From Polychytrium aggregatum (Eukaryota > Chytridiomycota > Chytridiomycetes > Polychytriales), in the NCBI RefSeq assembly GCF_025602895.1, contig NW_026516363.1:24566-88565 (forward strand): a stretch of 64,000 nt of DNA. The letters are read 5' to 3'. This document shows, in pieces, positions 3,690 through 58,845 of the stretch (position 1 is its first letter; each line of letters starts with the position of its first letter). A program made the translations under genes and the position numbers. A model generated the notes under the pieces. The model did not search any database, had not been told where the DNA came from, and saw only the letters and a program-made list of their open reading frames with translations.

Positions 3690-4530
3690 AAGCAAAACCG
3701 ATCACTTTCCCAGCTTCACAGAGGAGATCGTGGATCGCCCCTGGTCTCCATAATCGCCATGCACTCAGCGATCATGTTGCACACTGCATTAGCATCGCAA
3801 TAAAAACGGAACACCCGGATTTTGGTGGTTGGTGAATGTTATCACTCAACTCGCGCGCTGGCCATGACCATTCAGTGATGCGTTTCTGGATCTGAATCAA
3901 GGGTGCTGTCTCGCCCAGATGGCTCCCCGCAAGCGAAAGACACCTCCCAGGCGACCAAGCGGATCCAGAGTGTCCACAAGGTCCTTGGTCTGCAGCAATG
4001 GATGAGCACTGGACAAACAGCTGTACTTTAGCCTGACCCGGCGACGGCAATTCAAGCGACTCGATCACCAGGTGTGCTCACATTGCCAGGAAGCCAAGCG
4101 ACTCGGGAAGGCCGAGCACCTTGATATCGACACACCATGGAACTGTCCAGAGAGTCGAATGCATCCACCACACTCACACATCGAGCGGATGCACCACACT
4201 CACACATCGAGGCATCAATGTCAGTCGATCGTCGCCACAGGAGATTGACCGAGTGTATTCAAGATCATGCTTCCCAAACCAACGAAATCAAAGAGATTGC
4301 CAACCAGGACGGGAACAACCACGCGGCTTGCTCCCTGGAGCCCACGGAAGCTCAGCAGTCATGTGTCGCCGATGCCAGAAAGTGACTGTTCCGTTTCCTT
4401 CTGGATTGACTGTAGCGTCGCAGTTCCACACAGTATGACAGCTGGCATTTCAGCATTGCAATACAGAGCGATGGATGGGCGTGTATCCAGGGCCAGAAAG
4501 AAAAAATCTGTTCCTGGCTCAAAACAATAG
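3690..4530 (-). pseudogene. Fanzor relic, interrupted by a 625-bp related element
   Basis: On the minus strand, 3797-3716 translates to D-A-N-A-V-C-N-M-I-A-E-C..., then a stop. This aligns with the C-terminus of the intact Fanzor (DVNAARNMIAVCKSI). The homologous sequence resumes at 4413-4530, on the other side of an inserted element, with N-A-S-C-H-T-V-W-N-C-D, matching NPSCRTVWNRD (second half of the zinc ribbon and RuvC-III). A TGA stands where the intact gene has the Lys after the third zinc-ribbon Cys. Homology fades near 4530, next to the stop codon of the lipase gene, so the 5' three quarters are gone. The similarity also runs past the stop into the non-coding 3' end (ATCACTTT block near 3701-3708). 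It is an old dead copy. Confidence 0.8.
3790..4414 (-). mobile_element. Non-autonomous Fanzor/mariner deletion derivative, left inverted copy
   Basis: This copy is nearly identical, in reverse orientation, to 7070-7697. It sits precisely at a TA inside the Fanzor relic: GCATTA on the left and TAGCGTCGC on the right are contiguous in the intact Fanzor gene. Its 4386-4414 end has the family terminus (ATTGACTGTA). The 3790 end is partly eroded (TAGCATCGCAATAAAAACGG). Inside it keeps the first codons of the transposase frame (CATGACCATTCAG, 3859-3871) and a short plus-strand frame at 3919 (MAPRKRKTPPRRPSGS) that resembles the basic Fanzor N-terminus. Most of both genes is deleted. A 26-bp tandem duplication lies at 4161-4212. 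Single transitions at both termini (CGGAAC, TGTTCC) distinguish it from the other copy. Confidence 0.8.
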
Positions 4531-4535
4531 GACTT

Positions 4536-6847
4536 TTACGATTGGGCAATTTCTTCACGAATACTAATGTTGCCGTTAAATCGAACGCCATTGGATACTA
4601 GAACGTTGCTCCCTGATTCCGAGACACCGCCTTCGTTCCTGAGGGTAGTCCAGCTCTGGTGTAATGTTGGTCTTCGCTCGCCGCGACCTCTCCTGACGGC
4701 TTCATAGATCTGCTGCGGCGAAATCCATGACACGGTCCGCAGTGTCCCGGATGATTGAGCCACTCGATCGGGAATCTCGTCAGTGTCTGTCATCTGGCTT
4801 GGTGTTTCTATCGAGCTCCCGTAATCATTCAGGAGACCCAAGATTGCCGGAAAGACAGCTTTCTCGATGCCAACACCCCATAGGAAATGTACATGTTCAT
4901 ATTCTGATCGACGTGAACCAAAATTAGTGCGCGAGTTGACCTAAGGCGTCGTCGATTCTTTGCTACGTCATATTTCCTGCACATCGATATTAGTCGACTC
5001 CGATGGTATCTAGGGCTCAAAATAGTCCTGTTCGCAACACCCGCTCGTTGGAACTTGTGGGACATCCCCAACATGTGACCAAGACCAGCCTATATCGTCG
5101 GTGATTATTGCTCAAATCTGACATACCTTCGACCCGGAGGCAGAACACAGTGGTCGGTGCCTCCTTGAGAACATATTTCATGTCGGCGAGCGTGTCCTGG
5201 CCGCCGTAGAATAGCGCGATCGGTGTTCTAATATTTTCTGTCGGGAACTTTGGGACAATATGGCCACGGAGTACTGAAATAGGAGCACTTGTCCTTCCCT
5301 GGCGGACAAAGACCTCGGGACTTTCGTCGTACATCTGGAAACGGCCCGTGCGCATGATCTGGAACCAGTGGACAACGCACTTGACGGAGGTGTAGGAGTA
5401 AAGGTGCTGGTAGGCGACTTCTTTGTGGTTGATGAAGGCCGATTTCCATCCAAACAGGAACCAGACACATTGGTCGATAAACGAGGCGTAGTACCTTGAC
5501 GTCATCACCGACTGCCAGAAGACACATGAAGGAATCAGCGACTTTCGCCCAAAGAGCAGATAGATAATCTCGGGCGAGGTGTTGATGAAGGAGAATAGCG
5601 ACCGATTGGTGAGTGCCGGGGGCTTGGTGACCGGGGCCAGTCCAATAAAGAGGTGGATGCACTGGTTGAGCTGAGGCGACATGGCGAGTGCCGCGAGCCC
5701 TTGGGCCGAGCCTTGGGAAAAGCCGATATAGGCCAGCGACGCTGCGCCTGTTTGAGATAATATGTACTTGGGCGACAGAAAGAAGCCGGCAGATACAGTC
5801 AGCATGCAGGCGCTGTCGTTCGAATCGCTTCTCCCGCCAGTTTGTGCACTTACCTTGACTGAGTTGGGCACATCGTAGCAAACCAGGTGATCGATAGAAA
5901 AGTCCCAGAATCGGCTCTCGGTGAACTTGAGGGTTGTGTGCTTGCACGAGTACTTGTTGCCTCTCGAGTTGCCCAGCCAGACGTCGAAGCCGGCGTCGGC
6001 AAGCACCATCGGCAGGCTCAGCGACCGATCCGGCAAACATACCCAAACCTCTGAGCACATCAGTAGCCCGTGCCAGAAGAGCACAACTGGGCGACGATCG
6101 GCGCCTTCGTCCCCATGGAGTTCCGGCCCTGGGCGCGGCTCGCCATCGAGAACGTCGACAGAGCCCAGCATGTCGCTCTGGCGCGATTCTCTGGATGGTC
6201 GAGGGATTCGATGGAGGGCGATGATATATCCATCATCGGTGGTGACATAGTGCGCCTCGAACGGATAGCCCCTTTGTTGGTCGATGTACCAAGCAGAGTT
6301 GTGGTAAGCCGACGCCGACGTCCGTGAATACGACCTGCCTCAGGCGATGGGCACAGCCAGCGGCCTACCAGTGGCGAACAAACTGCTCGGTGGTGCCGTT
6401 TTCGTTAAAGGGTCGCCGATCCGAGGGATATGGGATCTTGCTGTCCTTGGATTGATGGCCTGGATAACGCGATCGCCGTTCGGGGGCTGGCGAGTGCGTC
6501 GGCAGGATGCGGGCCAGGAGGCCGATGAGGACTTGGATCGGTAACAGCGGGACCACCAGTCGAACAAGCGGCTCGATGATCAGGAGGGAGAAGGCGAGGC
6601 ACAGTCGCCCGTAGTCGCCCAGCGAGAGGCGGCCGAGGATAGGCACGCTTGAAAGCATATCGATCTCGAACTGTGAGGACGAGGCAGCTCGTGCAAAGTG
6701 ATGCCGGACAAACGAGTTCTGGGGTCGGGTTGCCGCCTTTTTCTGAGTCTCGGACGCACGCCCATACTCCCGCAGGGTCAAGATAAGGTTGACGATCGTC
6801 ACTCCATTGCACTGATCTACTGCTTTCCGATCCACCTTTGGTTCCAT
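4536..6847 (-). CDS. Membrane-anchored steryl ester hydrolase / acid lipase (TGL1/YEH type)
   Basis: This is an alpha/beta hydrolase that releases fatty acids from steryl esters, probably at lipid droplets or the ER. The family-typical entry GYPFEAHYVTTDDGYIIALHRI and the lid-side motif VLFWHGLLMCSEVW are visible. So are all three triad positions: nucleophile Ser in IGFSQGSA, Asp in YGGQDTLAD, and His in YEHVHFLWG. An N-terminal hydrophobic segment (LCLAFSLLIIEPLVRLVVPLL) is the membrane anchor. Introns: about 6335-6368 (unusually short, boundary tentative), 5767-5853 (87 nt) and 4904-5126 (223 nt, joining VE to EYEH). The start at 6847 (MEPKVDRK) is chosen over the Met codons at 6922 and 6662 but is uncertain. 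The tail after YEHVHF is long and ends at 4536, right beside the Fanzor relic. The gene sits between two inverted copies of the same transposon derivative. Confidence 0.85.
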
Positions 6848-7069: not shown

Positions 7070-7697
7070 TACAGTCAATCCAGAAGGAAACGGGACAGTC
7101 ACTTTCTGGCATCGGCGACACATGACTGCTGAGCTTCCGTGGGCTCCAGGGAGCAAGCCGCGTGGTTGTTCCCGTCCTGGTTGGCAATCTCTTTGATTTC
7201 GTTGGTTTGGGAAGCATGATCTTGAATACACTCGGTCAATCTCCTGTGGCGACGATCGACTGACATTGATGCCTCGATGTGTGAGTGTGGTGCATCCGCT
7301 CGATGTGTGAGTGTGGTGGATGCATTCGACTCTCTGGACAGTTCCATGGTGTGTCGATATCAAGGTGCTCGGCCTTCCCGAGTCGCTTGGCTTCCTGGCA
7401 ATGTGAGCACACCTGGTGATCGAGTCGCTTGAATTGCCGTCGCCGGGTCAGGCTAAAGTACAGCTGTTTGTCCAGTGCTCATCCATTGCTGCAGACCAAG
7501 GACCTTGTGGACACTCTGGATCCGCTTGGTCGCCTGGGAGGTGTCTTTCGCTTGCGGGGAGCCATCTGGGCGAGACAGCACCCTTGATTCAGATCCAGAA
7601 ACGCATCACTGAATGGTCATGGCCAGCGCGCGAGTTGAGTGATAACATTCACCAACCACCAAAATCCGGGTGTCCCGTTTTTATTGGATTGGCTGTA
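7070..7697 (+). mobile_element. Non-autonomous Fanzor/mariner deletion derivative, right copy (628 bp)
   Basis: Bounded by TACAGTCAATCCAG... at 7070-7098 and the complementary ...TGGATTGGCTGTA ending at 7697. These are the same ~29-bp termini as the full element at 13706-17341, each carrying ACGGGACA at its inner end. The last ~85 bp match the transposase end of the full element, including CATGGCCAGCGCGCGA at 7618-7633 and the transposase ATG context. Minus-strand sequence further in begins a Met-Ala-Pro-Arg-Lys-Arg-Lys frame like a Fanzor N-terminus, then stops. The order (TIR, transposase start, Fanzor start, TIR) is that of the full element with its interior deleted. The interior Fanzor part differs from the intact copy, so the parent was a related but distinct element. 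Confidence 0.8.
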
Positions 7698-7936: not shown

Positions 7937-10871
7937 TCACTCGGAAGCAGCACTGTCTAGACCCTTGAGTTTCTTGGCGGCTTCTCTGTATCCCGGCTCG
8001 ATCGCTGCGGCTCCTTGGCTCTGGGCTTGCGCTGTGCATCGCCGCTGGTAAGTGGGAAGAAAGATCGATCAGAAACATATTACCTGAGTCGGGCTGAGGG
8101 CAGTTGTAGCTCACCCCGATGCATGCATCTAATACATAAACTGCAAGGCTGCTCGAAACGTGCCGTTTTACCAACCTCTGAAGCTCAGCCCGGGGATCAA
8201 ACACTGCATAGTCATCAACTTTGGGCTCATAGACGTTGGCGGCCTCCCGTGCAAACTTTAGCTGATGGGCCATCCAACCAACATCATCGCCTTCGTCGTC
8301 ATCGGCACTATAGCATGATTTGCAGTTTCGAAGCCCATGCAATCGGCACTCATCCTGCCGGCCGTTTTCATTGCGAGGAGAGGAAGCAGGTGCATCGGAA
8401 TTGCGGAGCTTCAGCCGGAATGCCTCCAATGTCTTGAGCACATCGCCTTCATTGCCCTTCCGTCTGAGGCTACTGGTGCCTCCATACTGCGATCGAAAGG
8501 CATCGACAAAGGATGATCCTTTCTTGGAACTACCCTTGCTCAAGCCTTCGGAAGATTCTTTGGAACTGCCAATCCCGCGGATCTCCTTCGTGAGCTGGGT
8601 CAACTCGCTTTGAAGACTCATCCTGATATGCAACACGTGGAAATAATACAACATGTCCGATTAGCAGCAACTCGTTGGATAATCCTCTTTGCTTTGCCGT
8701 GCGTCTATGTTGGGCTGCAAGTCTCCATTCTGGATTACATTTTAGCCTTGGACCCAAAGGCGACTGGGGATCCGACAGAGCTTTCAGTTTTTGGACGCTT
8801 TGGCCGATGGCGGACGGCTTCGCTCTCTCCCTCGCTATCATAATCGGATGCGCTACTATGACCATCACTACTACCGGGACGGCGATTTGATGATTTGAGC
8901 TGATTGGCACGGGCAGGTGTCGCGACCGAGTGTTCTGTTCTTGCATCGGATAACTGGGGTGCCTTCAGCTCATCGGAACTGATGGCAGACTGAGGTCTCA
9001 AGCGCGGATCATCCGTGAGAGCATCGTGGCTACTAGTGACCTTTTTAAAACCGGGGCTGGCATCGGCCTGCACTTCTTCCTCTTCGCCGAAGGAGAGAAG
9101 CTTCAGATTCCTAAATGCCGTGGAAGTCACTGTGCAATTAGCGCCTGCTCTACATGCACCATGCGTCGAGCAAGGCCAAGTTAAAGATGGTGCTTGCCGT
9201 CTATTCTCGTATCTATCATCTTACTTTTTGACCTTGGGCTTTTTGATTTCCGTTCGTCGTTGCGCCTCCAGTCTCTCGGCAGCAAGTTTGGCGGCTTTTT
9301 CGGCTGCGGTAGTGCGAGGAATGATGTCGTCAAAGGGGTTCGAGAGTATCGATGTGGACCGAATGACGACGTCGTAGATTGGCCGCTCATCATCGTTGAC
9401 CTCGGACTCGCCGATCTTGAGTAGGTTGTAAATGGTGTCGCCAACTACCTGTTGTAGGCGAGAGGGTTGTGAGTGTCGGTCGCAGGGCCGTTGATCAGGG
9501 TTCAGTAGCTCGAGCAGGCACGGGAAGAAATACCTTGCCAAAGATAGTGTTCTTCTTATTGAGCTCCTCAGTCTTGTCCAGAGTGAAGAAAAACTGGGTC
9601 TGATTTGTGTTTGGTCCGGTGTTGGCCTAGGTGTGCAAGATCATCAGCGGCATTAGGCAATTGGATCGGTTGATCTAGTGATCTGGTGATCTGGTGCGAG
9701 CCCCTCCACGAACTGTACATCTGCACCATTCATCATGGAGCAGCCCAGACCAACCATCAGCTACCAAGCCGTCTTCCACTCAAGAGTTACAAGCAAACGA
9801 AATACAATCCATATACCAATTCGGTGACAACCACACCTGATCCACGCAGGACTCACCATCGCCAGGAGACCTCGGTGACTGAATCTCAACCGGGAATGGA
9901 ACTCATCTGGAAACTGGGTCAGATGAAGGGAGTGATAATCAGTGAAGGTACGAGCGATAGACGCTATACGATAAAGGAAGGTGAGCTGTCAAGCTTCTGT
10001 GTCTTACCGGCGATCCGTATATGGACTCTCCACCATTGCCCGTTCCTGCAAGCGATCAGATCTATCTTAATACGTGGAGGTGGGAGGGGAAATCCATGGA
10101 GCTTCTAGGATTATTTGCGATCATGGCGGCAAGAGCGGGTACCTGTAGGATCGCCTCCTTGGACAATAAAGTCCTTGACAACTCTGTGGATGATGGTGCC
10201 GTCGTAATAGCCCTCCATGCTGTCCAAGCTCAGGTTAGCTTGATGAAATGGTGGGACGTCTTATGATATTCGAGCAGGAATTCCAGTCGGACGGTGGCTT
10301 CTCTCTAACACCTCATAATCAGTCGTGGTTTGACATTTCGCTGAGTCCGCGCTCTATCCACCGTTCGGGTCGCTCACCATAGCTGAACAAAGTTTCGGCA
10401 TGCCTTGGGCGTTTCTTTGGGCCACAACTACTCGCGATGATGGTGGTATGATATAAATCGACACGATCAGTGCGTCAGTGGCTATGGCGACGAGACACCG
10501 GATGAAGCGACGTTGAGCTTTGATGAAACCAATCCACAGGGAAACTTATAGGTTCGTCGAAAGCGGCTTTTGGTCCGAAGATCGCGAGACTTGTTACGGT
10601 GGACCTATCCTTACCTCGATCTCCAGATCGCCGGAGGATGTGTGAATGATGACCTGTGACGCAGAGTGGCGTAGTTCGTCAAAATCAGTTCCGCATTCCG
10701 GCTGAAACATCTATCTGGCAGATTTTGCAAATGGGTGCGGCCACCGACTGGCCACGGTCTGGTTGTTCAGCCGGCGTGCGAGGAGGTTGGTCAGGTTGCA
10801 AATGGCTGGCCAGCGACGGCAAAGCAGACCTTGCCCTTGGTCGGAGGCTCCGTGGCGTATGCGCTGCTCAT
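7937..10871 (-). CDS. CWC27: CWC27, spliceosome-associated cyclophilin-like protein
   Basis: This is a cyclophilin-fold component of the activated spliceosome. Start at 10871 ([14 protein letters not shown]). Consecutive exons read [100 protein letters not shown] and [15 protein letters not shown]. They are followed by the CWC27-specific tail: [58 protein letters not shown] and [10 protein letters not shown], ending [14 protein letters not shown]. Family members end with the same GWMxH and DPR elements. At the position of the cyclophilin active-site Trp the sequence reads TEELNKK, so Glu replaces Trp, as in human CWC27. The protein probably has little or no isomerase activity. At least nine introns are recognised. 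Divergent from ALG10. Confidence 0.93.
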
Positions 10872-11183
10872 ATCTGTCTCGATGCAGCAGTATCGGATCG
10901 ATCGATCGGTAGGAGCGGCGCTGCCTTGGCGAGTATGGCAGAGGGCTCTGGACGGCGCGAGATCGATGCAAGCACGAAGCCGGCAGGATCGGTGGGCCGC
11001 CAGGACAGAACCAGACCCGCGAGCCGATGCACTGCGCGCCGGTTCTTCCTCCCTCTCATCTCCCTTCGCTGCATCGACGGCCCAGACGATCCAGCCCGAC
11101 GGATATCCCCCCATCCGCTGAAACGAGTGGCGCTCCCACCCGCCAAACCCTGTGCAAGACCCCGTGCATATCGCCGTTCCAGC
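10872..11183. promoter_or_regulatory. Shared divergent promoter region of CWC27 and ALG10
   Basis: The 312 bp separate the CWC27 start codon (minus strand) from the ALG10 start codon (plus strand). They must hold both core promoters. No TATA box or other recognised site was seen. Assigned by position only. Confidence 0.5.
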
Positions 11184-13577
11184 ATGGCCCCGTCTCTCAG
11201 CGACCGGAGTAGCGCTCTGCTCGTTGCAACGGCCGTCGTCTTGGCCGCATCTTCGTCGCTCTTCCGGGTGTGGAACTCGGTCCTGTCCTCAAACTACATG
11301 GATGAGATCTTTCATGTCCCCCAGGCGCAGTCCTATTGTCGCGGTCGTTTCTTGGAGTACGATCCCAAGCTGACGACTCCTCCCGGACTGTAAGTGTGTC
11401 CTGATTTCCGTCGTCCTTGGATCTGCCGTTTTGCAGCCAGCCTTCCCCGCACCAGCATCGTCTCGGCCGGCTCTGCGAGGACGTGGCTGCAAACCTCTTG
11501 CTCTTCGTGGTCTTTGGTTTTGCAATCGCACCACCCGGCCGTATCTAATCTGTTGCTCCCTTGACACCGGACCCCAGGTATGCGATTTCGTTCGTGGTTC
11601 TCAAGGCCGTTTCGGTGTTCAAGTCCGGGGTGTCATCTGTGGCTCATCCCATCGAGGACTCCCTTTGCTCGACGAGCACCCTTCGCTCCGTCAACCTTGT
11701 TTTCTCGGTCGTATTGATTCCAGTATTGAAGGGCTTGCTGGATAGCATCCATGGAAGACACCGCATCAATACTGCCGGCGCCATCGCAATCGCACTGTTC
11801 CCGGTGGCTTTCTTCTTCAACTTCATGTACTATACCGACACTGGATCGACGCTCTTCGTGCTGCTGTCGCTCCTCTATGCCCTACGCAAGAAAACAATCG
11901 CCAGTGCAGCGGTAAGCTCTTGTCATGTCCTCAATCCAGACTTTGATGCACAGCTATGCATGACTACTTGCGACCGGCACCTCTTCAAGATGAGTGGTTC
12001 AGGCGCGGTAGACGAACGGGCACATATGCGGGGAATAGAGAAAACGGACGCATATGTCAAATGAACATATATGAGGAATACGCCCTTCGATCATTCCGGG
12101 CCCCTCGGAAAGGAATGAAGGTCTCCGCGCTCCAAAGTTTCTCGGCGAGACTGACTTACCATCGCTGTTTTTAGGCCAGCTTGATTGCATGTACCTTTCG
12201 GCAGACAAACATCGTTTGGATGATGTTCATCCTGGCTCAAGTCGTCCGATCTCTTCTTGCTGAGAAAGCCGACGCGACCACAAGGGCGCAGGTTCTTGAT
12301 GTCAGGATTCACGAGCTAAAGACCGTCGGTGAGCGCAGATGTGGCCCCTGATGCCGTTTTTGAGTTTGGCTCCTTGGATGGTATGATATTTCATTATATG
12401 GCGAACTAATGTGGGGCTGCTGTACATTGCAGGCTCGGCTGTATTGTTCTTGCGTCGTCTCTTTGCTCTGGCCACGGCGAATCTAGGCTATATTCTCCTC
12501 CGAACCTGGCCTTATCTTGTTGTGCTCAAGCTGTTCGTTGCTTTCCTGGTCTGGAATGGAGGGATTGCCCTGGGCGACAAGGATCACCACATCATGAGCA
12601 TTCACGTTCCTCAACTCTACTACTTTTGCGGCTTCACGCTGTTCTTCTCCCTTGCAACATCAAGAGTCTTGCAGCGCATCCAAACCATTCCCAGGTTCAT
12701 CAATATCTGGTAATTGCTGCTGCTTCTTTCTAAAATGCTTGCGCCATAATCCGATCCCTACATCACATGCAGTCCCAAGAGCGGTGGTGGCTCTCAAGGG
12801 TGTAACGCTCTTCCATACTCTCATCACAGGTCCCTTTTCTGGATCGGCGTCGGTGTTGTAGTGATGGCCTGGACTATTCAAAAGTTCACGTAAGATTCAA
12901 TATGTCGAGAGCAAGTCGTGGTTCTTGGGCACGGCGCGTTGGTGGGATGGCCACGAGATCGCTGCTGATTAAGTACTTTCTCTGTCAAATCAACGGAATT
13001 TAGGATTGAGCACCCCTTCCTCTTGGCAGACAACCGCCACCTTACATTCTACGTCTGGAAGAACATTTACAGGCTCCACCCTCAAGTGCGGTATCTCCTA
13101 ATACCGGCATACCTGTTTTCGGGCGGTGTTGTACTTGGAAACTTGGGTAAGCACTTTTATTGTGTAAAGAACTTTGGGACAAATAGTATATGTTGGCTCT
13201 GCCATGGCCAAGCGACGGTTTGCTTGCGCGAGCTTCCCAATGTCTGCATATATGGGCTCTACTGACGCCCATCGACGTCCGGCTCGGCTCTGACGATCGG
13301 ATTCAATCCTGTAGCCCAACGACAGTCAACTATATGCGTTCTGGCGTTTTCTGTGGCTGTCGCAATCACGCTGATCCCGTCTCCTCTCCTCGAGTTCCGC
13401 TACTTTATCATTCCCTTCATCCTATATCGGCTTCATATTGAGAGACCGTCCCGACCAGCCCTGATAGCCGAGGTGCTCATGGCCGGACTGATCAACCTGG
13501 CAACCATTGCTCTTTTCTTGGGATATACGTTTGAGTGGCCGAGCGAGCCTGGTGTCAAGCAGCGATTCATGTGGTAG
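11184..13577 (+). CDS. ALG10: ALG10, dolichyl-phosphate-glucose alpha-1,2-glucosyltransferase
   Basis: An ER membrane enzyme that adds the terminal alpha-1,2 glucose to the lipid-linked oligosaccharide Glc2Man9GlcNAc2-PP-dolichol. The signature SNYMDEIFHVPQAQSYC, followed by DPKLTTPPGLY, is diagnostic. Later exons carry KDHHIMSIHVPQLYYF, IEHPFLLADNRHLTFYVWK and FRYFIIPFILYRLH, all at expected family positions, between many hydrophobic segments. Start at 11184 (MAPSLSDRSS). Introns begin at 11390 (GTAAGT, ends at a CAG before 11579), after KKTIASAA (~11910), after ELKTV (~12328), after INIW (12712), after QKFT (12890) and after LGNLG (~13147). The stop is at 13575-13577. The Fanzor transposon begins 129 bp downstream. 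Confidence 0.95.
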
Positions 13578-13679: not shown

Positions 13680-13700
13680 CGCACGATCGTCGGTCGTGCG
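13680..13700. other. 7-bp-stem inverted repeat directly beside the transposon
   Basis: CGCACGA (13680-13686) and TCGTGCG (13694-13700) form a perfect 7-bp stem with a 7-nt loop, five bases outside the left terminus of the Fanzor element. It could be part of ALG10 3' processing or a target-site structure. On the minus strand it occupies the place where a Fanzor guide would be read from flanking DNA. Confidence 0.5.
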
Positions 13701-13705
13701 ATTGG

Positions 13706-13734
13706 TACAATTTATTCAGAAAAAAACGGGACAA
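13706..13734 (+). repeat. Left terminal inverted repeat of the Fanzor transposon
   Basis: 29 bp, tip TACA, inner end AAAAAAACGGGACAA. It pairs with 17313-17341 and matches the ends of the deletion derivatives. It adjoins the 3' side of the Fanzor gene. Confidence 0.85.
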
Positions 13735-13845
13735 TATAGCCGTTTCCATGAACATGTAGTATGTGCTGTGCTTGCGTCAAGCAAAGCCACAAGAAATAAA
13801 ACAGATCACTTTGGCAGCCTCCGAGTGAAGACCGCCGGTCGCTCT
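13706..13845 (-). ncRNA. Predicted Fanzor guide-RNA scaffold (fRNA / omegaRNA-like)
   Basis: In TnpB and Fanzor systems the guide RNA is transcribed from the 3' end of the nuclease gene through the transposon end, with the guide taken from the flanking DNA. Here that segment is the last ~13 codons of the Fanzor plus 100 nt of non-coding sequence. It contains a perfect 6-bp stem with a 3-nt loop (TGCTTG/CAAGCA, 13769-13783) and a GACC/GGTC stem (13830-13840). The same block (CTCCGAGTGAAGACC, then ATAAGAAAT or ACAAGAAAT) is retained in the 30895-31146 derivative and partly in the relic at 3690. Location and function are inference by analogy; no RNA evidence was available. Confidence 0.4.
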
Positions 13846-16178
13846 CCGATCTCCACAATCGACTTGCACACTGCGATCATGTTGCGCGCCGCATTGACGT
13901 CGCGATTCCACACTGTCCGGCAGCTGGGATTCTTGCAGCTCCTGACAAAGTGGGAATTCGCAACACTGGGCGCATCGAGTCCTTCCAACCGAACTGGCTC
14001 CAGGCACTTGGAGCACACTTGCGAGGTGTTGAACTCGTTCGTCGAGACTACCTTGACGCTTCCATGATGGTGATTGGGACGGCGTCGGTGGTGCTCGAAT
14101 TGCTCAAAGTACTGAGCAAACCGCTGCCTCCTCGGGCTGGATGCATATCCCTTGCCCTGCCGCCATGACGCATTGCCAAAGGCGATCACCACATCAGTCC
14201 GTATCGGGGCGTGCTTCAGGACGGCCTTGCACATCTTGTCGACGGCCACTTGGCGCCTCTTGTGGCCCGTGAAGCGATGGTGACGGGCCTTCTTGCCAAG
14301 GTGGAAATCGAGCTGCACTCGCAGCTCCGGTCGCAGGACATGGGTGAGATGGACCTTGAAAGCCTCCGAGAACGACACCTTGGGCGAGGGGGTGGTCGAC
14401 ATCCAGGTCTCGATGCTGAGTCGATACTTCATGATATTGTGCCACTTGGTGTTGGACTTGTGGCCACACATTTGCTGGTAGTGGCCATTCGAGAATGAGA
14501 CCACCTCGTCTTGGTGACCCGGTGCTTGGATGACCGCCGTGAAGATGGAGCCGACTCCAGGATCGATGCCAATCCAAGTGGTGCGATCGGGGTCTGGGTT
14601 GCCAATGTGGGCCTGGATACGCTGCTCGGCAGACGGAGGAGGCTCGATGGTCTCGGTGCGATCGGTTCGACGCACAAACTTGACGAGACCGATGGTGCAT
14701 CCAATGCCATCGGTGCTGATCTCGTAGTTGAACAGCTTGTGATTGATATCCCGGTCACGGAAGAGGGAACTACGCAGCTTGAAGCAACTGCGCCAGAGAC
14801 GATCCTGGTTGTTGACACCGTCCTCACCTTCTTCCTTGAGCATGTCCCTGGTGAGTCCAAGGCGCTTCTTTGGACCAAGGAGCTCCCAGAGAGTGACCGT
14901 GTCAATCTTGACATACTTGGCCTTTGTAGTGCATAGAGGGACCATCGTGCACACGGCCGGAGGAGTGTCGACGGCGAGCTGCTTGAGTGCCCACTTGATC
15001 CTGGATGCCAGCTTGTTGATCTTGGACTTGGTGGTGCCGAGCTCAGACTTGGCCTTGGTGAACCTCTTGTCGTCGGAGGGAATGCCTTGGGTAGTGAGCT
15101 CGTCCAGCTTGGCCTGGCGCTGCAGCTCGGTGACTCGGAGGGCGGGCATGTCACAGTCGATCCACTTGTGGACATCGTCCTGCATCTTGTCTCGGGCGAG
15201 GATTCCCACATGGTGTGAGAGGCGGTGGAGGGCCCGGAAGCGGTCCTGGTCGTTGCTGTACCGAAACTCGTCCAGGACGTGGCCAAAGTCTGGATAGAGG
15301 AACTCGAGATCGGCCTTGGGTGGAGTCTGCCCTGGTTTCTCGAAGAGCTCGAGACAGGCCTCGATGGCTTCGTGCTTGTGCTTGTTGGCTGGGAATACAG
15401 CAGCACAGAAGCGGCGAAGGAGTCGCCAGTAGGCCAGGTCGAGGTGGGTGGTGCAGTTGGTGGCATAGGCATTGACAGCCAGTGTGAGAAGCTGACTGTG
15501 AGCACCATCAGGCAGACGAGGGGCCGGAGGCAGGTCTGCGTGCCGAGTGGACTGGTAGATGCCAAAGGAAGCGACCAACTGCTTGTTGTATTTCTCATTG
15601 TCCCCGGTCGGCGAGAGGGCATCGGCCTGGACGATCTTGAAGCATTGGCGGATGAAAGCAGGGGTGGACTTGGAGATGACGGGGACGGGAAGATCCTGCT
15701 CGATGCACCGGAGGATGTGCAGGTTGAGCAGCCTGGATGCCTCGAACTGGATCTGGGTCATGGCCTCGACGGTGGCCTGGATCTTGTCGCGGAGAGCGGG
15801 ATTGAGACAACAGCCATCCATCGTCTGCTTGAAGCAGCTGTATTGAGGGGCGGATGACCTTCCATCCACGAGTGGGACGACAGAACTCTTGAGGGGCCGG
15901 TAGTTGGGACACTTGTTGGTGTTGCAACGTTCGTGATCGGTGCCATCGCACTTGGGACATCGCTTGCCGGTACTCGAGGAAGTAGATGGACCAGGCTCGG
16001 TGGGATCGACATCCATTGGATCTGCAGAAGCAGTGGTGGTGAGCGACGGAGCAACAGACGAACAAGCATGCGTGGGATCAGAATACGAACCAGAGACAGG
16101 CTCCGACTGTGACTTGGCTTTCTTGGGCCTGGGTGGCCGAGGCTGGCCATCACCGGTACCCTTGCGCTTCGGAGGCAT
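13806..16178 (-). CDS. Fanzor, eukaryotic TnpB-like RNA-guided nuclease (790 aa)
   Basis: A single uninterrupted frame. The N-terminus is basic and NLS-like (PPKRKGTGDG, PPRPKKAKS), followed by an acidic Ser/Thr-rich linker and a CCHC-like knuckle (C74, C77, H82, C85, C90: CPKCDGTDHERC). The middle is helical (recognition/wedge region). The C-terminal nuclease has RuvC-I WIGIDPGVGS (D539), a RuvC-II strand VVIAFGNAS with Gly at the usual Glu position, STNEFNTSQ with a candidate alternative Glu (E715), a zinc ribbon (C722, C725, C748, C753) and RuvC-III NRDVNAARNM (D760). Fanzors, including one studied from the chytrid Spizellomyces, are RNA-guided DNA nucleases carried by diverse eukaryotic transposons. 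An upstream Met at 16307 overlaps a TATA box, so the Met at 16178 (MPPKRK) is preferred. All catalytic motifs look intact. Confidence 0.92.
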   Translation of the reverse strand: MPPKRKGTGDGQPRPPRPKKAKSQSEPVSGSYSDPTHACSSVAPSLTTTASADPMDVDPTEPGPSTSSSTGKRCPKCDGTDHERCNTNKCPNYRPLKSSVVPLVDGRSSAPQYSCFKQTMDGCCLNPALRDKIQATVEAMTQIQFEASRLLNLHILRCIEQDLPVPVISKSTPAFIRQCFKIVQADALSPTGDNEKYNKQLVASFGIYQSTRHADLPPAPRLPDGAHSQLLTLAVNAYATNCTTHLDLAYWRLLRRFCAAVFPANKHKHEAIEACLELFEKPGQTPPKADLEFLYPDFGHVLDEFRYSNDQDRFRALHRLSHHVGILARDKMQDDVHKWIDCDMPALRVTELQRQAKLDELTTQGIPSDDKRFTKAKSELGTTKSKINKLASRIKWALKQLAVDTPPAVCTMVPLCTTKAKYVKIDTVTLWELLGPKKRLGLTRDMLKEEGEDGVNNQDRLWRSCFKLRSSLFRDRDINHKLFNYEISTDGIGCTIGLVKFVRRTDRTETIEPPPSAEQRIQAHIGNPDPDRTTWIGIDPGVGSIFTAVIQAPGHQDEVVSFSNGHYQQMCGHKSNTKWHNIMKYRLSIETWMSTTPSPKVSFSEAFKVHLTHVLRPELRVQLDFHLGKKARHHRFTGHKRRQVAVDKMCKAVLKHAPIRTDVVIAFGNASWRQGKGYASSPRRQRFAQYFEQFEHHRRRPNHHHGSVKVVSTNEFNTSQVCSKCLEPVRLEGLDAPSVANSHFVRSCKNPSCRTVWNRDVNAARNMIAVCKSIVEIGERPAVFTRRLPK

Positions 16179-16305
16179 GGGGGCAGAGGATGCTGGATGC
16201 CTGCCAGTGGTACTGGTCAGAGCAGAGACTTTCTTTATCGTACAATAGCGCGATGATCCGATCAAGGCGAGATGAGGGAAGAAAGCAGCAGGACGAAGGT
16301 GTGGC

Positions 16306-16312
16306 ATTTATA
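16306..16312 (-). promoter_or_regulatory. TATA box of the Fanzor gene
   Basis: The minus strand reads GGGTATAAATGCC. The box lies about 130 nt before the preferred Fanzor start at 16178. The first in-frame ATG (16307) overlaps the box itself and so is unlikely to be in the mRNA. Confidence 0.5.
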
Positions 16313-16422
16313 CCCGAGAGCAGGAGCCCGTCTGCGCGGGCTGGTTGGGGAAGTGACCCTGTTCAAAAATCGCCGAGAGGTTCAAGCCAGGGATGTGAAC
16401 GCGAAAATGGCGGCGTGATTGG

Positions 16423-16482
16423 GGAGCTCAACCCCAAATTGGAGGAGCTCAACCCCAAATCGGTGGGGACTCAACCCCAAAG
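16423..16482. repeat. Three short direct repeats at the 3' end of the transposase gene
   Basis: CTCAACCCCAAA occurs three times at ~21-23-bp spacing. The last transposase codons (VESPPIWG, stop) are read from this block, so repeat expansion may have cut the C-terminus short. Confidence 0.6.
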
Positions 16483-17255
16483 AAGTTCTCGATGGGATTG
16501 AAGTCGGGCGAGGCAGGTGGGGTGAAGATCACTGACCATCCTCGGCGCTCGATGCAGTCCAGGACAGCCCTTGTCTTGTGCATGCTGACATTGTCCATCA
16601 CAATCACAGAGTCGTCTGGGAAGGTCGCTCGCTCAAAGAACTCGACCATCGAGTGTGTCTTGAATGATGTGGGGATGTACATGCGATGCAGCACACCAGA
16701 GTGGTTGATGGCAAATGCAGCCGAGACGGACTTGTGTTTCATGTGATTGCACTGGCGAAGCGGAGCACCCTTCGGTGAGTATCCGTAAAGAGGGAAAATG
16801 GATCTCCTGATCCCCGTCTCATCGACAAAAACGAATCGTCGTGGGTCGATGGAGCGGACCTGGTCCCTGAACTGTGCCACTCGCTCATCCAGTCGCTTGG
16901 ACTTGTAGAGGTGTGTTGCCCTCTTGTGTGAGAGACCTGCTCGGTGGATGGCAGTGTGGCAGAGTGAGAGTGATACTTTCCTCTGGAGGATGGACTCGAG
17001 CTTGCACCGCAACACAGGACCAGTCTGGAACGGATCCTGTTCAATCAGGGTGCGAATGACTGGACATGCCTGCTCGAAGAAAGTGGATCTGCGAGCTGGG
17101 ACCCGGGATGGGTCATCCAGCTTGCATCCTCGGTGCCATCGATGGATGGTGCTCTTGGATACACTGAATATGGAGGCAACCTTACGCAGGCTATGGATGA
17201 GGGCGTAGTATCGCAATGCGGCGGTGTGAAAGTCGGATGTGTGGCGAATGGTCAT
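16449..17255 (-). CDS. DD34E transposase, Tc1/mariner-IS630 type (268 aa)
   Basis: A cut-and-paste transposase. The N-terminus has a helix-turn-helix (residues ~12-42: LRKVASIFSVSKSTIHRW) and a second helical DNA-binding part to ~120. The DDE triad is visible: D145 in FVFVDETG, D221 in VIVMDNVSMHK and E256 in PDFNPIENFFG, with exactly 34 residues between the last two. This spacing is the DD34E signature of Tc1-like elements. The frame ends 12 residues after E256, whereas relatives continue for tens of residues; the C-terminal helix region is missing or replaced by repeat-derived codons. The start codon (17255) lies 86 bp from the transposon end inside the conserved CATGGCCAGCGCGCGA block. It is upstream of and co-directional with the Fanzor gene, with about 270 bp between them. 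Confidence 0.9.
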   Translation of the reverse strand: MTIRHTSDFHTAALRYYALIHSLRKVASIFSVSKSTIHRWHRGCKLDDPSRVPARRSTFFEQACPVIRTLIEQDPFQTGPVLRCKLESILQRKVSLSLCHTAIHRAGLSHKRATHLYKSKRLDERVAQFRDQVRSIDPRRFVFVDETGIRRSIFPLYGYSPKGAPLRQCNHMKHKSVSAAFAINHSGVLHRMYIPTSFKTHSMVEFFERATFPDDSVIVMDNVSMHKTRAVLDCIERRGWSVIFTPPASPDFNPIENFFGVESPPIWG

Positions 17256-17268
17256 GGCCAGCGCGCGA
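17253..17268. promoter_or_regulatory. Conserved subterminal 16-mer, possible transposase binding site or promoter
   Basis: CATGGCCAGCGCGCGA is identical at 17253-17268, 31058-31073, 7618-7633 and, inverted, 3851-3866, while flanking bases vary. Three of these copies no longer encode transposase, so a cis function is likely. It overlaps the transposase start codon. Confidence 0.5.
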
Positions 17269-17312
17269 TAACATTGGGTAACAAAATATTCGATGAATGG
17301 TCAAAATCCCGG

Positions 17313-17341
17313 GTGTCCCGTTTTTTATTGGATTGCCTGTA
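17313..17341 (-). repeat. Right terminal inverted repeat of the Fanzor transposon
   Basis: 29 bp, reverse complement starting TACAGGCAATCCAA and ending ACGGGACAC. It pairs with 13706-13734. It adjoins the 5' side of the transposase; BBS2 starts 102 bp beyond it. Confidence 0.85.
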
Positions 17342-26109: not shown

Positions 26110-27301
26110 GCGTCGTCGCCGGACATTGATCCTGTCGGTGGCAGCACATGTCGTGCCCAAGAACAACGGCTCAGAAAGCAATTCAACAACAACCCACACC
26201 CCTCATCCACGCTTGTCATCAAAGCCAAACGGCGACGTACTTGGAGGGCTCCGGGCGACCTTCCGTTGGACCAAGCGCTCTTGCTACATGCTGAATCTTG
26301 GTTGTTATTCTCTCTGTCGAGCGGATTTCATTCTGTACCGGGTCCAAAGCGTTTGCCATCGTCGATCAACACTCGTAAAGCGATGTAAAATGGGCACTCT
26401 CGACCTGGGCGACTGAAACTATCCCTCAAATGATGAGCTGATGATATGGTTAAGAACGAGGCGATATGCGTAGTGACTGAGTTTGGCGCCGGGTTTGGTG
26501 CTGGCCTCGCCGCCTGAGCGGCAAGCCTGGTGAGGTCATTCTTTTATTGTGTGCATTCAGCCTCAGAGCGAGCGTGCGAGAGTTGCTTGCGGCCTTCTGA
26601 TGTAATCAGTGTTGCTGCGAATCAGCCGATCAGGTATTGGCCCATTGTTCTCTGCATTTCCATTCACACTACGGAAGAGCGGCGTAGTACGAGACGGTTG
26701 GTTTCGCTGAGGAGGGGCATCATTCGTATGTGGATACATCGTGCGATGCACAGGGCGGCAGCTCCACAATGCACCTCGCAGAGCCAAGGAGTGCGGGTCG
26801 TCTGCGGCTCCTCGGGTGTTCTGAGCAGCCCCATCGTCACCAGGTGAAGGACAGCAAGAATGGGTTCATCAGGACGACCCTGTCAAGGTCTACCGCTCGC
26901 ATGTACCCTCGCAATGTTGTGGAGTTATTAACTGTACAGCATGTTGAACAAAAAATGGGACACATCGTTTCGTTCGGGCAAACACGGCGTAGCGCACAAG
27001 TTCACTATCGCCCATGGAATTCGATCAGTATCCGGGACATACTTTCCACTATGAGTTTACGATGAACGATTGGCGGTGGCAGCAGAAACGAAGACGGTCC
27101 GATGTGACCGTCGCCGGCGAGCGCCATTCGCACGCGATATATTGAATACTGCATGATTCTTGGGTGCCTTACGCACGTGGGTTGACCCAGAGGGTTTGGT
27201 TTGATGCCAAAGATGTTATCAGTCGGACTGCGCTGGGGTCGGGCAATCGTGTCGTCCGCCAACGACACGATGTACGCAGTGACGAGAGCACACGTCATGT
27301 T
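26110..27301. other. Intergenic, no gene recognised
   Basis: Separates two minus-strand genes. A 97-residue minus frame at 27005-27298 has no recognised similarity or splice context. The region probably contains the promoter of the downstream PHD/GATase gene. Confidence 0.45.
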
Positions 27302-30593: not shown

Positions 30594-30894
30594 CGCGGAC
30601 CAGCACACACGCGTAAATCGGAAGCAGGGATGAAGCCGCTGGGTATGAGTGCGTATGGCTTTGGTCGAGACGAGCTGCTGTTGGACATGCAGCCATCCGC
30701 AAGAAATGCTTGCTTGCAAGCACCCGAGAGCGACGCAGGGCATTCGTATGAAGGACTGAAAATCTCCGTCCAGTCGAGCCAGACAGCTCTAGACCCAATC
30801 ATTGTGCGACCGAGATCGAGACGCCTGGGCTCGGCCGGTCGTTTTGTTCGCCAGCCATATGGACAGTTTGTGGGATGGATGAGAGCTGTGGTGT
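30594..30894. other. 5' flank of the FAM161-like gene
   Basis: The promoter side of the minus-strand FAM161-like gene, up to the mini-element at 30895. No promoter motif was recognised. Confidence 0.4.
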
Positions 30895-31146
30895 TATGGG
30901 ACACCCTCGCGATCCCATTTATCAGCGTAACATGTGATGAGCGCCTAGCTATGCCATAAGAAATCGAACAAACCACCTCCGAGTGAAGACCACCGGTCGC
31001 TCTCCGATCTCCACAATCTACATGCACACTGGTCTCGGAGTGCCAGCGGTGAATGGCCATGGCCAGCGCGCGATGGTATTAGGTAACAAATCATTCGGCC
31101 AACGACCAATAGCCAAAGTATCTCGTTTCTTTCTGGATTGGTTGTA
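30895..31146 (-). mobile_element. ~250-bp deletion derivative of the Fanzor transposon
   Basis: The right end (31118-31146) is the family terminus, reverse complement TACAACCAATCCAG. Next to it is the conserved CATGGCCAGCGCGCGA block (31058-31073) with the transposase start, reading M-A-I-H-R-W. At about 31030 the sequence jumps to the Fanzor C-terminal coding region and its 3' non-coding tail (CTCCGAGTGAAGACCACCGGTCGCTC, 30978 onward; ATAAGAAAT). It runs to a degenerate left end at TATGGGACAC (30895-30904). All of the Fanzor except ~25 codons and all but ~7 codons of the transposase are gone. It sits between the FAM161-like gene and UTP6. Confidence 0.8.
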
Positions 31147-42904: not shown

Positions 42905-44888
42905 GGCTGCGACGATGCTGGGAAGGAGGGGGACACGGAGGCAGGGGGGAGAGCAGGACGGATCGAGCGACGGTATATATCGGGAGGATCTTGTTGGGGG
43001 GGGGCTGGTGCCGGAGCAAGGCAGCAGCAACAGGACGGGAAGCGGGGCTGGCGATCGCGAGGGTCGCACGGATGCCTTCCGATCGGGCCAACCACGAGCG
43101 CGTGCGGACACGCCATCGGGCGATCGCGGGACCGGATTGGTGCGCCGGCCGGAGACGCCCGCCAGGTGACCTGGCGTGGGGAGAACACAGCTTTGTCGGC
43201 AACAGCGCCCATGTTTGCCGAGGCTGCGTTACGCCGGTGTTGATATCGATGCCGGTGTTGGTATCGATGCTGGTGTTGATATCGATGTCGTTGATATCGA
43301 TGCTGGTGCTGATATCGATGCTGGTGCTGATATCGATGCTGGTGCTGACAGCCATGTAAATGTCACCCACCCACACCGAGTCGGGACAGCATGCGGCGGG
43401 CAGTGTCTGTCCATCCATGATCGCCATGAAGCCCCAGCGGGTGGAGCGACACATCCACCGCCTGGCACTGCCCTGGGCCGCCGTCACCGCTTCTCTGGCG
43501 GGAGGGGAGCCACTCCCGCACGCATCCCCATGCATCCGCCCGGCAGTGCTGGCCGAGCCAATGCATCCGCGGAGGTGGGTGTGGATGCGGAGGGCAGAAT
43601 GAGCCGGCCAGCGCCGACCAAGGCGGACTGGGCACCAGGAGCAAGATCCAACAGCCCACGTCGTGGGGGAAGATCGCGCCTCGATCCGGAGTCGTCCGCC
43701 GAGGCGGGTGCGCTGTCGGCTTTCAGCCTGAACCACAGCAATAGGGGTCGATGGGCTGCAGACCGAATCGAGGGTGCTTATGCTCGTCTTTGAGCCGAGC
43801 ACCGGCGCTGAACTCGCATCCAAGCCATCGCCCGGCCTGTGCCTGTGCCTGTGCCTGGACTGCCATGAATGTGGCGCGACACTACTGCCTTTTTCCTGGA
43901 AGAACCAAATCGACTCGTTGGTTCGCAAGGCCCTGTTAGATCGCGCCAGGCCGCAGCACCAAAAGCGCCGGTGCTGCGGGTTTGATGTTCTCCCAACGGA
44001 CACGGGGTCCGGCATCGCTGGCGGCTCGGTCGAGCAGAGGACAGAGCCTCCGTCCAAGCACCAGCACAGATGCGAGCAGGAGATGGGCTTGCCCCGTTTG
44101 CCCCGTTTGCTCCGTTTGCCCTGCTTGCCCAGCCCGCTCGACATGATCTGCTGGTCCGGGATACCCGCCAAGCCACACCCGCCCAGCTTCGATCGCTTTC
44201 CGCCGTCGTCGGCTGCCTTCGCCGTGCTTCTGCGGGCTTCTGCCGCGGCGAGCAGCGAGGAGGGCAATTGGCTTGGGCGAGAGCGCTCTCGGCGCGGCCT
44301 CGCCGGCGCGCTGTTCTCGCCGAACAGATTAAATTCATCCTGATTCTCGCCCCTCGCTTCTCGCCCGAGCGAGACGGCCTCGGCCGAGAGCGCGACGCGG
44401 CTCGACAGCATGCCCGCCACATCAACAGTGTGCGCAGCAGCCTGATACCGCCAGCACAGCGCCGCACACAGAGACTGCGGCAACCCGGGCGCACAAGGCG
44501 CGTCCGTCGCACCACGCACCACGCTGCTGCGCACAGAGAGCGCTCTGTGCGACCAACAGGGGCATTCGATTTTCGGTGTCCTGGGCTCTCGCCGGGCTTC
44601 TCGCCGCAGCGAGCCTCGCCCGTGCCTCTGTTGCTATCCGCCTGGGAAGCCGCTATATAAGCTCTTCTCGGCGCCATTTGTTATCGAGATCCACCCGCCT
44701 TCGTTCCCCTCTGCCCTTTCCTGCGTCTCGGACTGCGAGGTGAGCCTGGCGATGCCGTGAATCTCGGCACTGCCCCTACGATCGGTGCACCTCGATAGCC
44801 TGGCTGGCTCTCGGCAGCCCTATCGGCTCTATGCGCTGACCCGCCTCGGTATCCTGGGCATCTCCAGATCCACACACACTCTCTCACA
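42905..44888. other. 2-kb divergent intergenic region with minisatellite
   Basis: Between the start codons of the IYD-like gene (minus) and the DnaJ gene (plus). It holds both promoters, the repeat at 43233-43348 and short CCCCGTTTG-type repeats at 44094-44130. A TATATAAG sequence lies at 44653-44660, about 230 bp before the DnaJ start. Long open frames here are GC-driven and lack family similarity. Confidence 0.5.
43233..43348. repeat. 18-bp minisatellite GATATCGATGCTGGTGCT
   Basis: About six units; the later three are almost perfect and earlier ones vary (GATGTCGTT). Each unit contains the palindrome GATATC. Confidence 0.85.
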
Positions 44889-51627: not shown

Positions 51628-52871
51628 CGAGCCGGACCTGCACTGCCACAGCGCCACTTCCGCGTCCTGTCCCCAGATGGAAGGTGCCAAATGTGGCTGG
51701 CGCGACAAGAGGCAGCGCGTCCGCCAATCGCGTGTCGCGTGGTCTGGAAACGTGGTCCAAGCCCTTGGCCGGCGCGCTCCTGAAACAAATGCACAAAGCA
51801 GCACCCAGCTACCAGCGCCCATGGCTTCGACCACCAACGAGCGCATTTTGCGCAAAGCTGCAGATCGCCCAGATGCTATCGAAGGCACTCGTGCTGGGCG
51901 TCCCCCCACGCACCGCCTGGCGCTCAAAACTGGCCTTGGATGAGATTGCGGCTCTGGCAAGGACGAAAGCGGAGGTCTGCCGACACATCGGGCGATGCTG
52001 GGGAGGGATTCGGCGACGCATCGGGCAGACCTCCTGCGATGGAGCTTTGCGAACAGCTGCGTTTCGCATCCAACATCGCCGACGGCCTGCTGCTTGCATC
52101 CACTCGCCTGGCAACACAGAGACATGGCGAGACAGCGGCCCCGATGGCATGCGCGGCAGGCCGCTGTCCAGGCCGCTGCACTCTATCGATGGCCGCAACC
52201 CAGCACCCGCATCGAGGGTCCCGCTGGGCTGATGCCTCGGGCTTGGCACGCTTCATGGAGCGGCGAGCACTGCCGCACGTGGAAGAGCGCTCCGATCGAT
52301 GCGACTTGAGCTGGGAATCGATGCGACTTTGGCTGGGAATCGATACCATGGCCAGTGGGATATGCCATGGCCAGCAGGACCTGGGCTTCGACATACAAAG
52401 GCACATCTGCCAGCCCAGAGAGAGCAGGCAGCCGCCGCAGCCGCCGTCGCGAACCAGGCGAACACGCAGCCCATGGCCGACAAGAAACCCAACGGCAACG
52501 GCATCCCCGCCGAACAAGCAGCGCACATCCGCCCTTGCTTGCACGCTGGCGGCCTTGCTGCCCCGTGCGACATTGTACCGGCTGCTGTGCATCGGCCGAG
52601 GCCAGGCAGCGAGGCGTGTGACGGGGGCTCTCTTCCCGCCTCGGCCGGGCGAGACCCGCTATTTCGGCGACCGAGACGGGGAGCGAGAGTGTGGCAGTCG
52701 CTGGTGAGGGGGCGGCTGGCAAGGCTCTCGGGGATCGGCCCGAGGCACGATGGCCAATGTCGCTCCTATCTGATCCGCCTCCAGTTCCTCCGACTTGCAC
52801 CGACGCCCGCTGTGCTGCCCTCGGCCGTCTGTGACTGCCACCCTTGGCCGCATCGCATCCAACCGGACGAG

Positions 52872-53050
52872 CAGAATCCAGTTGCATCGAGCTGAATCGT
52901 GCTGGATCGAGCTGAATCGTGCTGGATCGTGCTGAATCGTGCTGGATCGAGTTGGAGTCGTTGAATCCAATAGGACCGATTGAATCCAACAGGACGATTG
53001 AATCCAGAAGGACGATTGAATCCAGCAGGACCGATTGAATCGGACTGGAT
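52872..53050. repeat. Two adjoining tandem-repeat families (GAATCGTGCTGGATCG and GATTGAATCCAACAGGAC)
   Basis: The first half alternates GCTGAATCGTGCTGGATCGAG units. The second half has 17-18-bp units GAATCCA..AGGAC(C)GATT. The two share GAATC cores in different registers. Confidence 0.8.
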
Positions 53051-57463: not shown

Positions 57464-58845
57464 AACCATATCATCTCGACCCAGATCACAGCGGGGAAGA
57501 GAGCGAGGACACGATCCTAGCCCTCAGACCCTGGCCCTCACGCCCTGGCCCTCACGCCCTGGCCCTCACGCCCTGGCCCAGACAAGAACAATTCGACACA
57601 TGTACAAACAAAGCACCTCGACGGCATTCAATATCTCCCGCCTGATCACCACTCACGGCGCATCGTACATCGCATGCCATACTCTATCCACCGTGTTTCT
57701 GCCTCCGCTCCCCTGCCCTTCTTCCAGAATTCATACGGCCAAGCTCAGTAAGCATCGTACAATGAAGCCTTGCAGGAAGTCGAGGCCCATCCAACGTTGA
57801 TTCGGGACCGTTTAACTTGATTTCGTTTCCCTTCTCGCTCTCTCTCCTCGCGACTCTTGAGAGGTGATGGGCTATTCGTGCGATTTATTTGTTATCGATT
57901 TCAGCTCCACTTCATCCCTCTTGGCGCCTTGCGTCCCTGTCCTGTCCGATTACGCCGCGTTTGTCCGAATACGACGAAGTGTCCCATTTTTTTCTTTTTC
58001 TCCGGCGCGCTGTATATGTATCTGTCTATCTATATGTTGTATTTATTGGATGTGCTGCACCCTGTTGTAGGCTGTTCTTATTTTCTCCCTTTCCTTCTTG
58101 TTTCACTTGATAGCTGACCAACGCCGATAACCCGTCTTGCCGCCTGGGACGATTTCCACTTGCAGCTGCGCGAACGTTGCTGTTGCTGCTGCTGTTGCCA
58201 CTTCTATCACTACTTCCACTGCTACTGCTGTTGTTGTTATTGCTTTGTGCCAACAAATGAAGCTGAGCGTGCTGCTTTTTACAGCTGTTTGCTTGATGGA
58301 TGGGAATAAACACATCTTTCATCCACAATGACGATCCACCCTCGTTCGACCCGAGGAACAGCACTTCGTACGGAGCGGTCCAAATGCTCGAACATGTATT
58401 GGTGGGCCAGGAGGATAGACGTGTACTGGTATACGTAGACTCGTGCAAGGGCAAGGGCAAGGGCAAGGGCGAGGTGCAGCAGGACAGGACAGGAGCTCTC
58501 AACCAGAATGTCGCTGCAGTAAGCTTGTAAGGTGGGCGGGGGAGATGGGGGATGGCAGCGCGAGTGCGGCCATGGAATCCAAAGAAACACGGTGCCAAGC
58601 AACAGAAGCAAGCACGCATAGGCTTAGGGAAGACAGAGCGTGAGAGAGGAGGTGCGGTGAGAGTGTGCGAGATTGGAGCGGAGGCATAGTCTTTGTGGCT
58701 TTGTAACCCCCGGAAGACAAGTGGCCAGGAGGCTTCAGGGAATCAACACGAGCCACCCTGGAGCAGCACGATCATCATGTCCGCCGCCCTCCCCCGCCTC
58801 TCGACAAGGTACAGATCCTATGCGGAGCGGCCAGGAACCAGCCGC
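57464..58845. other. Convergent intergenic region
   Basis: 3' flanks of the CRAL-TRIO (+) and F-box/ankyrin (-) genes. Contains tandem CCCTGGCCCTCACG (57529-57579) and GGGCAA (58445-58470) repeats and a T-rich stretch near 57990. No gene recognised. Confidence 0.5.

Follow-up and report, generated by a model that had tools for sequence, protein, structure and literature searches.

DNA transposons in which a Fanzor1 gene and a mariner-like transposase gene share one element have been known since 2013, when PGv-1 and PUl-1 were described (Bao and Jurka, PMC3627910). PGv-1 comes from a Phaeocystis virus, PUl-1 from Pythium ultimum and the similar HMa-1 from a possibly viral Hydra contig. All three have terminal inverted repeats (TIRs) and TA target sites, and in PGv-1 and HMa-1 the transposase lies in the 5' part. 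A further relative, SPu-1 of Spizellomyces punctatus with its Fanzor1 SpuFz1, has short TIRs, TA borders, a scaffold running from the stop codon to the element end, and short derivatives without the Fanzor gene (PMC3627910, PMC10432273). For SPu-1, a transposase has not been found between the ends, and the target-adjacent motif is CATA; the Spizellomyces punctatus genome holds 134 loci with SPu-1 ends but without the Fanzor gene, for which help in trans has been suggested (Saito et al. 2023, PMC10432273). Here we describe an element at 13706-17341 of a 64,000-nt stretch of the Polychytrium aggregatum genome (contig NW_026516363.1, positions 24,566 to 88,565; hereafter the window). It is one more member of the arrangement known since 2013, Fanzor1 within Tc/mariner elements. 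It shares TIRs and TA sites with the 2013 elements and differs from them in its eukaryotic neighbours and in a transposase frame that is cut short, as far as their published descriptions allow a comparison. Unlike SPu-1, it encodes a transposase in cis and has TTA at its head flank. Among the listings and passages covered by our literature search, with most subscription papers and preprints outside its scope, a fungal Fanzor1 accompanied in cis by a mariner transposase did not appear, and we make no claim of priority. Taken together, the locus is likely a Fanzor1-carrying IS630/Tc1/mariner-type DNA transposon whose transposase is probably truncated in this copy and whose tail would act as a guide-RNA scaffold. 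Its main parts are:

13706 to 17341, minus strand: whole Fanzor-bearing IS630/Tc1/mariner-type element, 3,636 bp from TA to TA, delimited by sequence and terminus scan, with the relative R31 showing that it is a single unit
17314 to 17341, minus strand: head (transposase-side) inverted terminus, 28 nt, matching the family consensus at 27/28, with T preceding the TA
13706 to 13733, plus strand: tail (Fanzor-side) inverted terminus, 28 nt, matching the family consensus at 24/28
16449 to 17255, minus strand: transposase open reading frame (ORF), 268 aa, IS630 type, with D145/D221/E256 and the C-terminus absent from the frame
13806 to 16178, minus strand: Fanzor ORF of 790 aa beginning at MPPKRK (833 aa when the open frame is followed upstream to 16307), with D539, E715, D760 and TDG at 489

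Both genes are read from the minus strand, the transposase (17255-16449) first and the Fanzor (16178-13806) second. The two ends form imperfect inverted termini that agree at 21 of 28 positions and carry TA at both borders (13706 and 17341). Among 200 random pairs of 100-nt stretches drawn from the window, the best gave 19 and 0 equalled the termini. Scanning the window with a 28-nt family consensus recovered five termini at 24-27/28, both ends of the element included; the top consensus score in five Markov-simulated windows was 21. As the consensus was built from the same copies that the scan recovers, this result speaks for consistency and is not independent proof. The original prediction had given 29-bp inverted termini between TA borders at these positions. 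The inverted ends exist and both borders are seen, consistent with the termini of other copies in the window, but base 29 is mismatched and the repeats measure 28 nt.

Read from its first ATG, the Fanzor frame (13806-16307) encodes 833 aa; read from the ATG of MPPKRK at 16178, it encodes 790 aa. The shorter protein is the likelier product because the first ATG sits within the TATA-like GTATAAATG. At the stop rate of the window, 790 open codons would be expected by chance with a probability of about 4e-10. The Fanzor1 motif of PMC3627910, D-X(125,275)-[TS]-[TS]-X-X-C4 zinc finger-X(5,50)-RD, is found from D539 to the RD at 759-760, with the zinc finger cysteines in CSKC and CKNPSC. Three further signatures of Fanzor1 are DPG, a relocated catalytic glutamate and TDG in the WED domain (PMC10711439). 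They correspond here to IDPG at 538, E715 in NEFNTS and TDG at 489, the last of which would lie in a WED domain. Pfam TNB (OrfB Zn ribbon, PF07282) matches at 38 bits against a cut-off of 26.3 (E 1.8e-9), and NCBIfam TnpB models match below their own cut-offs. In a comparison of the whole protein with PDB sequences, LaTranC was the sole match (E 0.13-0.14). Judged by ORF and motifs, the Fanzor gene is apparently intact: the frame is open and D539, E715, D760, IDPG and RD are all present, in agreement with the predicted 790-aa Fanzor with nuclease motifs. From this sequence we infer that the window may hold a working RNA-guided nuclease. A separate observation concerns the N-terminal extension, where a Cys/His-rich segment, CPKCDGTDHERCNTNKCPNY at 15900-15959 (residues 74-93), looks zinc-knuckle-like by eye and has no Pfam match.

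The transposase shows D145, D221 and E256 in DD34E spacing, as originally reported. The NCBIfam IS630 equivalog model matches at 117 bits (cut-off 100) over profile positions 4-269 of 299, and Pfam DDE_3 at E 5.3e-21 over positions 2-127 of 146. For the N-terminal helix-turn-helix, HTH_23 matches below its cut-off (E 0.0044, 17.2 bits, cut-off 24.6). A low-confidence structure model built from six sequences (predicted local distance difference test, pLDDT, 58) gave Mos1 as top Foldseek match (E 4.6e-6, template modelling score 0.32). Relatives were found in five of 36 candidate stretches in GTDB contigs (L008-L012), all five from metagenome-assembled genomes of cyanobacteria. These IS630 fragments carry the same motifs and are 30-41% identical over the common part. 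They retain a C-terminus of 51 residues past the catalytic glutamate in 5/5 cases, whereas the present ORF stops after 12, and alignment with the relatives is lost beyond the first few of these. The ORF ends inside a tandem repeat:

16420 to 16486, no strand assigned: 21-bp tandem repeat at the transposase ORF end, about 2.8-3 copies

The shortened C-terminus together with an ORF end in a tandem repeat indicates that the transposase is probably truncated, although a weak out-of-frame match, discussed below, leaves some doubt. A split transposase gene or an assembly error at the 21-bp repeat may also account for the short frame. The loss of the part after the glutamate lowers the claim to autonomy and leaves the family assignment of ends and catalytic core untouched.

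Searches of viral_contigs with the Fanzor and with the transposase returned four and three stretches, respectively, with no relative among them, and the 28-nt terminus pattern had 0 matches there. Two DNA patterns based on a Fanzor motif returned one and six stretches from the same contigs; neither L001 (by its ORF list) nor L002-L007 (by translation and tblastn) contained relatives. The window contains 0 matches to a related pattern, so the Fanzor of 13806-16178 would itself escape such patterns.

A scaffold that lies between the Fanzor stop codon and the element end, with a 14-15-nt guide beyond, has been reported (PMC10432273), and predicted Fanzor1 scaffolds include TIR and target site duplication (PMC10711439). 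The corresponding parts here are:

13706 to 13805, minus strand: candidate guide RNA (omegaRNA/reRNA) scaffold, two predicted hairpins, the terminal stem pairing UACA with UGUA of the TIR and target site duplication
13691 to 13705, minus strand: predicted native guide, about 15 nt flanking the tail end, placed by position only, as inferred from SpuFz1

Folding of the 100 nt that separate the Fanzor stop from the element end gave z -2.57, with 2/200 shuffles equally stable, and the predicted terminal stem contains the inverted repeat, pairing UACA with UGUA across the TA. A repeat with other shuffles gave z -2.54 to -2.69, and 2% of 150 GC-matched window stretches were as good. When the stretch was extended into the coding sequence and the flank, z was -1.91. 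The head end of the element gave z +1.17. Rfam at gathering threshold gave 0 matches and a tRNA search 0 tRNAs, and there is no other window site for the 13691-13705 guide with fewer than three mismatches. The predicted folds provide moderate support for a guide-RNA scaffold in this copy and none in its derivatives.

Several relatives of the element are found in the window:

about 30876 to 31146, minus strand: R31, internally deleted relative consisting of head end, 56-nt Fanzor 3' block and tail, left border uncertain
7070 to 7697, minus strand: m2, 628 bp, derived by deletion from a related element, both termini at TA, no transposase
3790 to 4414, plus strand: m1, inverted copy of m2 lying inside F3, tail terminus complete, head damaged and TA at 3790 inferred
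3694 to 4464, minus strand: F3, Fanzor C-terminal relic split by m1 into about 3694-3797 and 4415-4464

R31 matches the main element head at 73/99 nt and its Fanzor block matches window 13818-13873 at 53/56; in the Fanzor itself, three codons and the stop come next. The block is better kept than the head (Fisher p 0.001) and than the 36 alignable nt of tail just after it (27/36, p 0.01), the tail terminus being unrecognisable. In m2, a Fanzor-start-like MAPRKRK was noted by eye, and a weak trace of the Fanzor C-terminus is also present (35% over 74 aa, E 0.065). The m2 head aligns with the main head at 75/96, yet has a consensus score of only 21, owing to a 1-nt gap in a gapless scan. With 2 differences in 617 nt between them, m1 and m2 are nearly identical; this fits recent activity, and gene conversion could be an alternative. 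F3 was found with the element as query (about 3694-3797, E 8e-13; 4415-4464 weak alone, E 0.21 and 1.4). With the m1 flanks joined, its differences from the Fanzor are spread nearly evenly over the three codon positions (11, 11 and 9), as expected for a dead copy.

The m1/m2 pair shows additional features of its own. The 617-nt inverted copies (3798-4414 and 7070-7686; 99.7% identical) enclose 2.7 kb with an alpha/beta-hydrolase-like gene (5017-6171), an arrangement that could allow the enclosed segment to invert. At the m1 head junction (3785-3802), GCATCGCA follows the TA in place of the terminus CAGCCAATCCA; it is similar to GCGTCGCA after the TA on the opposite side, as if insertion or repair had been aberrant. 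A similar but distinct terminus with the core AAAAAATGGGACA occurs in two copies (26935-26991 and 57951-57992; 42 nt, 83% complementary). These are probably relics of another mariner-type family, and window self-comparison gave no partner ends for them.

On the head side, T precedes the TA in 4/4 insertions (main element, m2, R31 and m1; p 6e-4 against a window background of 15.6%), a pattern noticed post hoc in small numbers. With the TA of m1 inferred, owing to its damaged head, the clear cases are 3/3, and the count becomes 4/5 when the more distantly similar terminus at 26935, with G before its TA, is added. The next bases on the tail side of the three readable insertions are C, A and G and show no preference. 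The asymmetric TTA may reflect recognition by the Fanzor instead of a preference of the transposase; CATA and TTAA are given for two studied Fanzor1s (PMC11423790).

Based on these features, a life cycle can be proposed. The DDE transposase would bind the 28-nt ends, excise the element as double-stranded DNA and integrate it at TA sites, apparently TTA; the ends and the TA are observed directly, and the movement is a proposal. Here, the transposase frame lacks about 40-46 C-terminal codons, so that a complete relative would have to supply the transposase, and 13706-17341 probably relies on other copies to move. The last 100 nt, including the terminus, would form the guide-RNA scaffold according to the predicted structure, and about 15 nt of host DNA past the tail would act as guide, by analogy with SpuFz1 and insect-virus Fanzor1. 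Such a guide would match the empty site (TTA plus guide), be it on the donor, the sister or the homologous chromosome. Cleavage of this site by the Fanzor may then force repair from the element-bearing copy, so that the element would be kept or multiplied, as in the TnpB model.

Several observations weigh against this interpretation. The tail terminus departs further from the consensus than the head does (24 vs 27 of 28), the transposase is present in one copy only within the window, and its five relatives, too, are fragments with open frames (110-205 aa). As to the scaffold, an 80-nt version of the tail gave z -1.20, 4% of 150 unmatched window stretches attain z -2.3, and the tails of the relatives fold no better than shuffles (m2 -0.24, longer m2 +0.92, R31 +1.19). 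On the protein side, the Fanzor C-terminal part compared with PDB sequences gave LaTranC at E 0.023 and Cas12m at 0.21, the solved SpuFz1 reaching only 0.59, and the single-sequence Fanzor structure model (pLDDT 40) is too poor to judge the bilobed fold or REC2 insertions. Lastly, the best tblastn match to the L008 C-terminus (E 0.08) lies downstream of the transposase ORF, collinear and on the same strand:

16183 to 16266, minus strand: weak candidate for the missing transposase C-terminus, lying in a different frame, 12/28 columns identical to L008

This match is one argument for an autonomous element with a complete transposase, in which either the 268-aa ORF is active as it stands or splicing or frameshifting adds a C-terminus encoded in another frame. 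The catalytic triad is present, the ORF exceeds the IS630 cut-off, and the score of 16183-16266 was equalled by just 2/400 random 380-nt window stretches. Nevertheless we regard this explanation as improbable: all five relatives continue for 51 residues where the ORF has 12, the profiles stop at 269/299 and 127/146, and the frame ends inside the tandem repeat. Moreover, 16183-16266 is absent among the best 21 frames listed for a profile of the five relatives (threshold E 100), has no NCBIfam match and yields only DUF629 (E 0.096) in Pfam. The splice-site consensus is GTAAGT or GTATGT, which none of the eight GT sites listed before this stretch shows, and inspection of the three minus-strand frames downstream of the transposase for an intron or frameshift revealed nothing obvious. 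The intact transposase of the original prediction is therefore not upheld, and its view of two intron-free genes holds for the open Fanzor frame only, the transposase end being missing from the frame or located elsewhere. An autonomous element is likewise unsupported because the ORF halts 12 residues past the catalytic glutamate; a recently autonomous one is possible in view of the open Fanzor ORF and the near-identical derivatives.

A second alternative is that the transposon has decayed and the Fanzor has been kept by the host for its own use, unlinked to transposition. This would fit a transposase that is cut short beside an open Fanzor ORF with its own TATA-like sequence, but we consider it very improbable since both ends and the guide-RNA-like tail are preserved and the relatives in the window carry deletions or are dead, like copies of a transposon family. 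That a mariner remnant and a separate, unrelated Fanzor element merely adjoin here, which the original prediction had named as its refutation, is scarcely credible and was dropped mainly on R31: the more divergent tail terminus and the weak Fanzor remnants of m2 (E 0.065) would suit it, but in R31 the head end and the Fanzor 3' coding end are united within about 270 bp, a strong case, with which m2 is in accord, that they travel together; this largely refutes mere adjacency and supports the predicted union of Fanzor and DDE transposase in one mariner-type element.

The surroundings of the element are eukaryotic, with pieces of ALG10 at 10656-12710 and genes with DnaJ, nitroreductase and CRAL-TRIO domains. 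Elsewhere in the window, two short tandem arrays (43215-43357 and 52868-52957, with 15-18-nt and 10-nt spacing) sit among long overlapping open frames on both strands.

Beyond the Fanzor1-carrying transposon with a truncated transposase favored here, the locus may tentatively be placed in a still-mobile family in which a cis-encoded IS630-type transposase and Fanzor1 are co-adapted, although we think this rather unlikely. In such a family both proteins would share the TA, as target duplication and as part of the Fanzor motif, with TTA on the head side only; the tail TIR would be re-coded as a guide-RNA stem, and short deletion derivatives keeping the Fanzor 3' end would provide additional guides in trans. 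The idea of guide-only "ghost" copies is retained solely within this proposal, given that the R31 tail terminus is unrecognisable and the R31 and m2 tails fold no better than shuffles. If true, the co-adapted family would correspond, with a transposase of its own, to the orphan SPu-1 and the ghost loci of Spizellomyces. With both proteins between the same ends and derivatives nearby, the element offers a concrete pair with which to test if cutting of empty sites by a Fanzor preserves a cut-and-paste transposon, the transposase for such a test probably being supplied by a complete relative.

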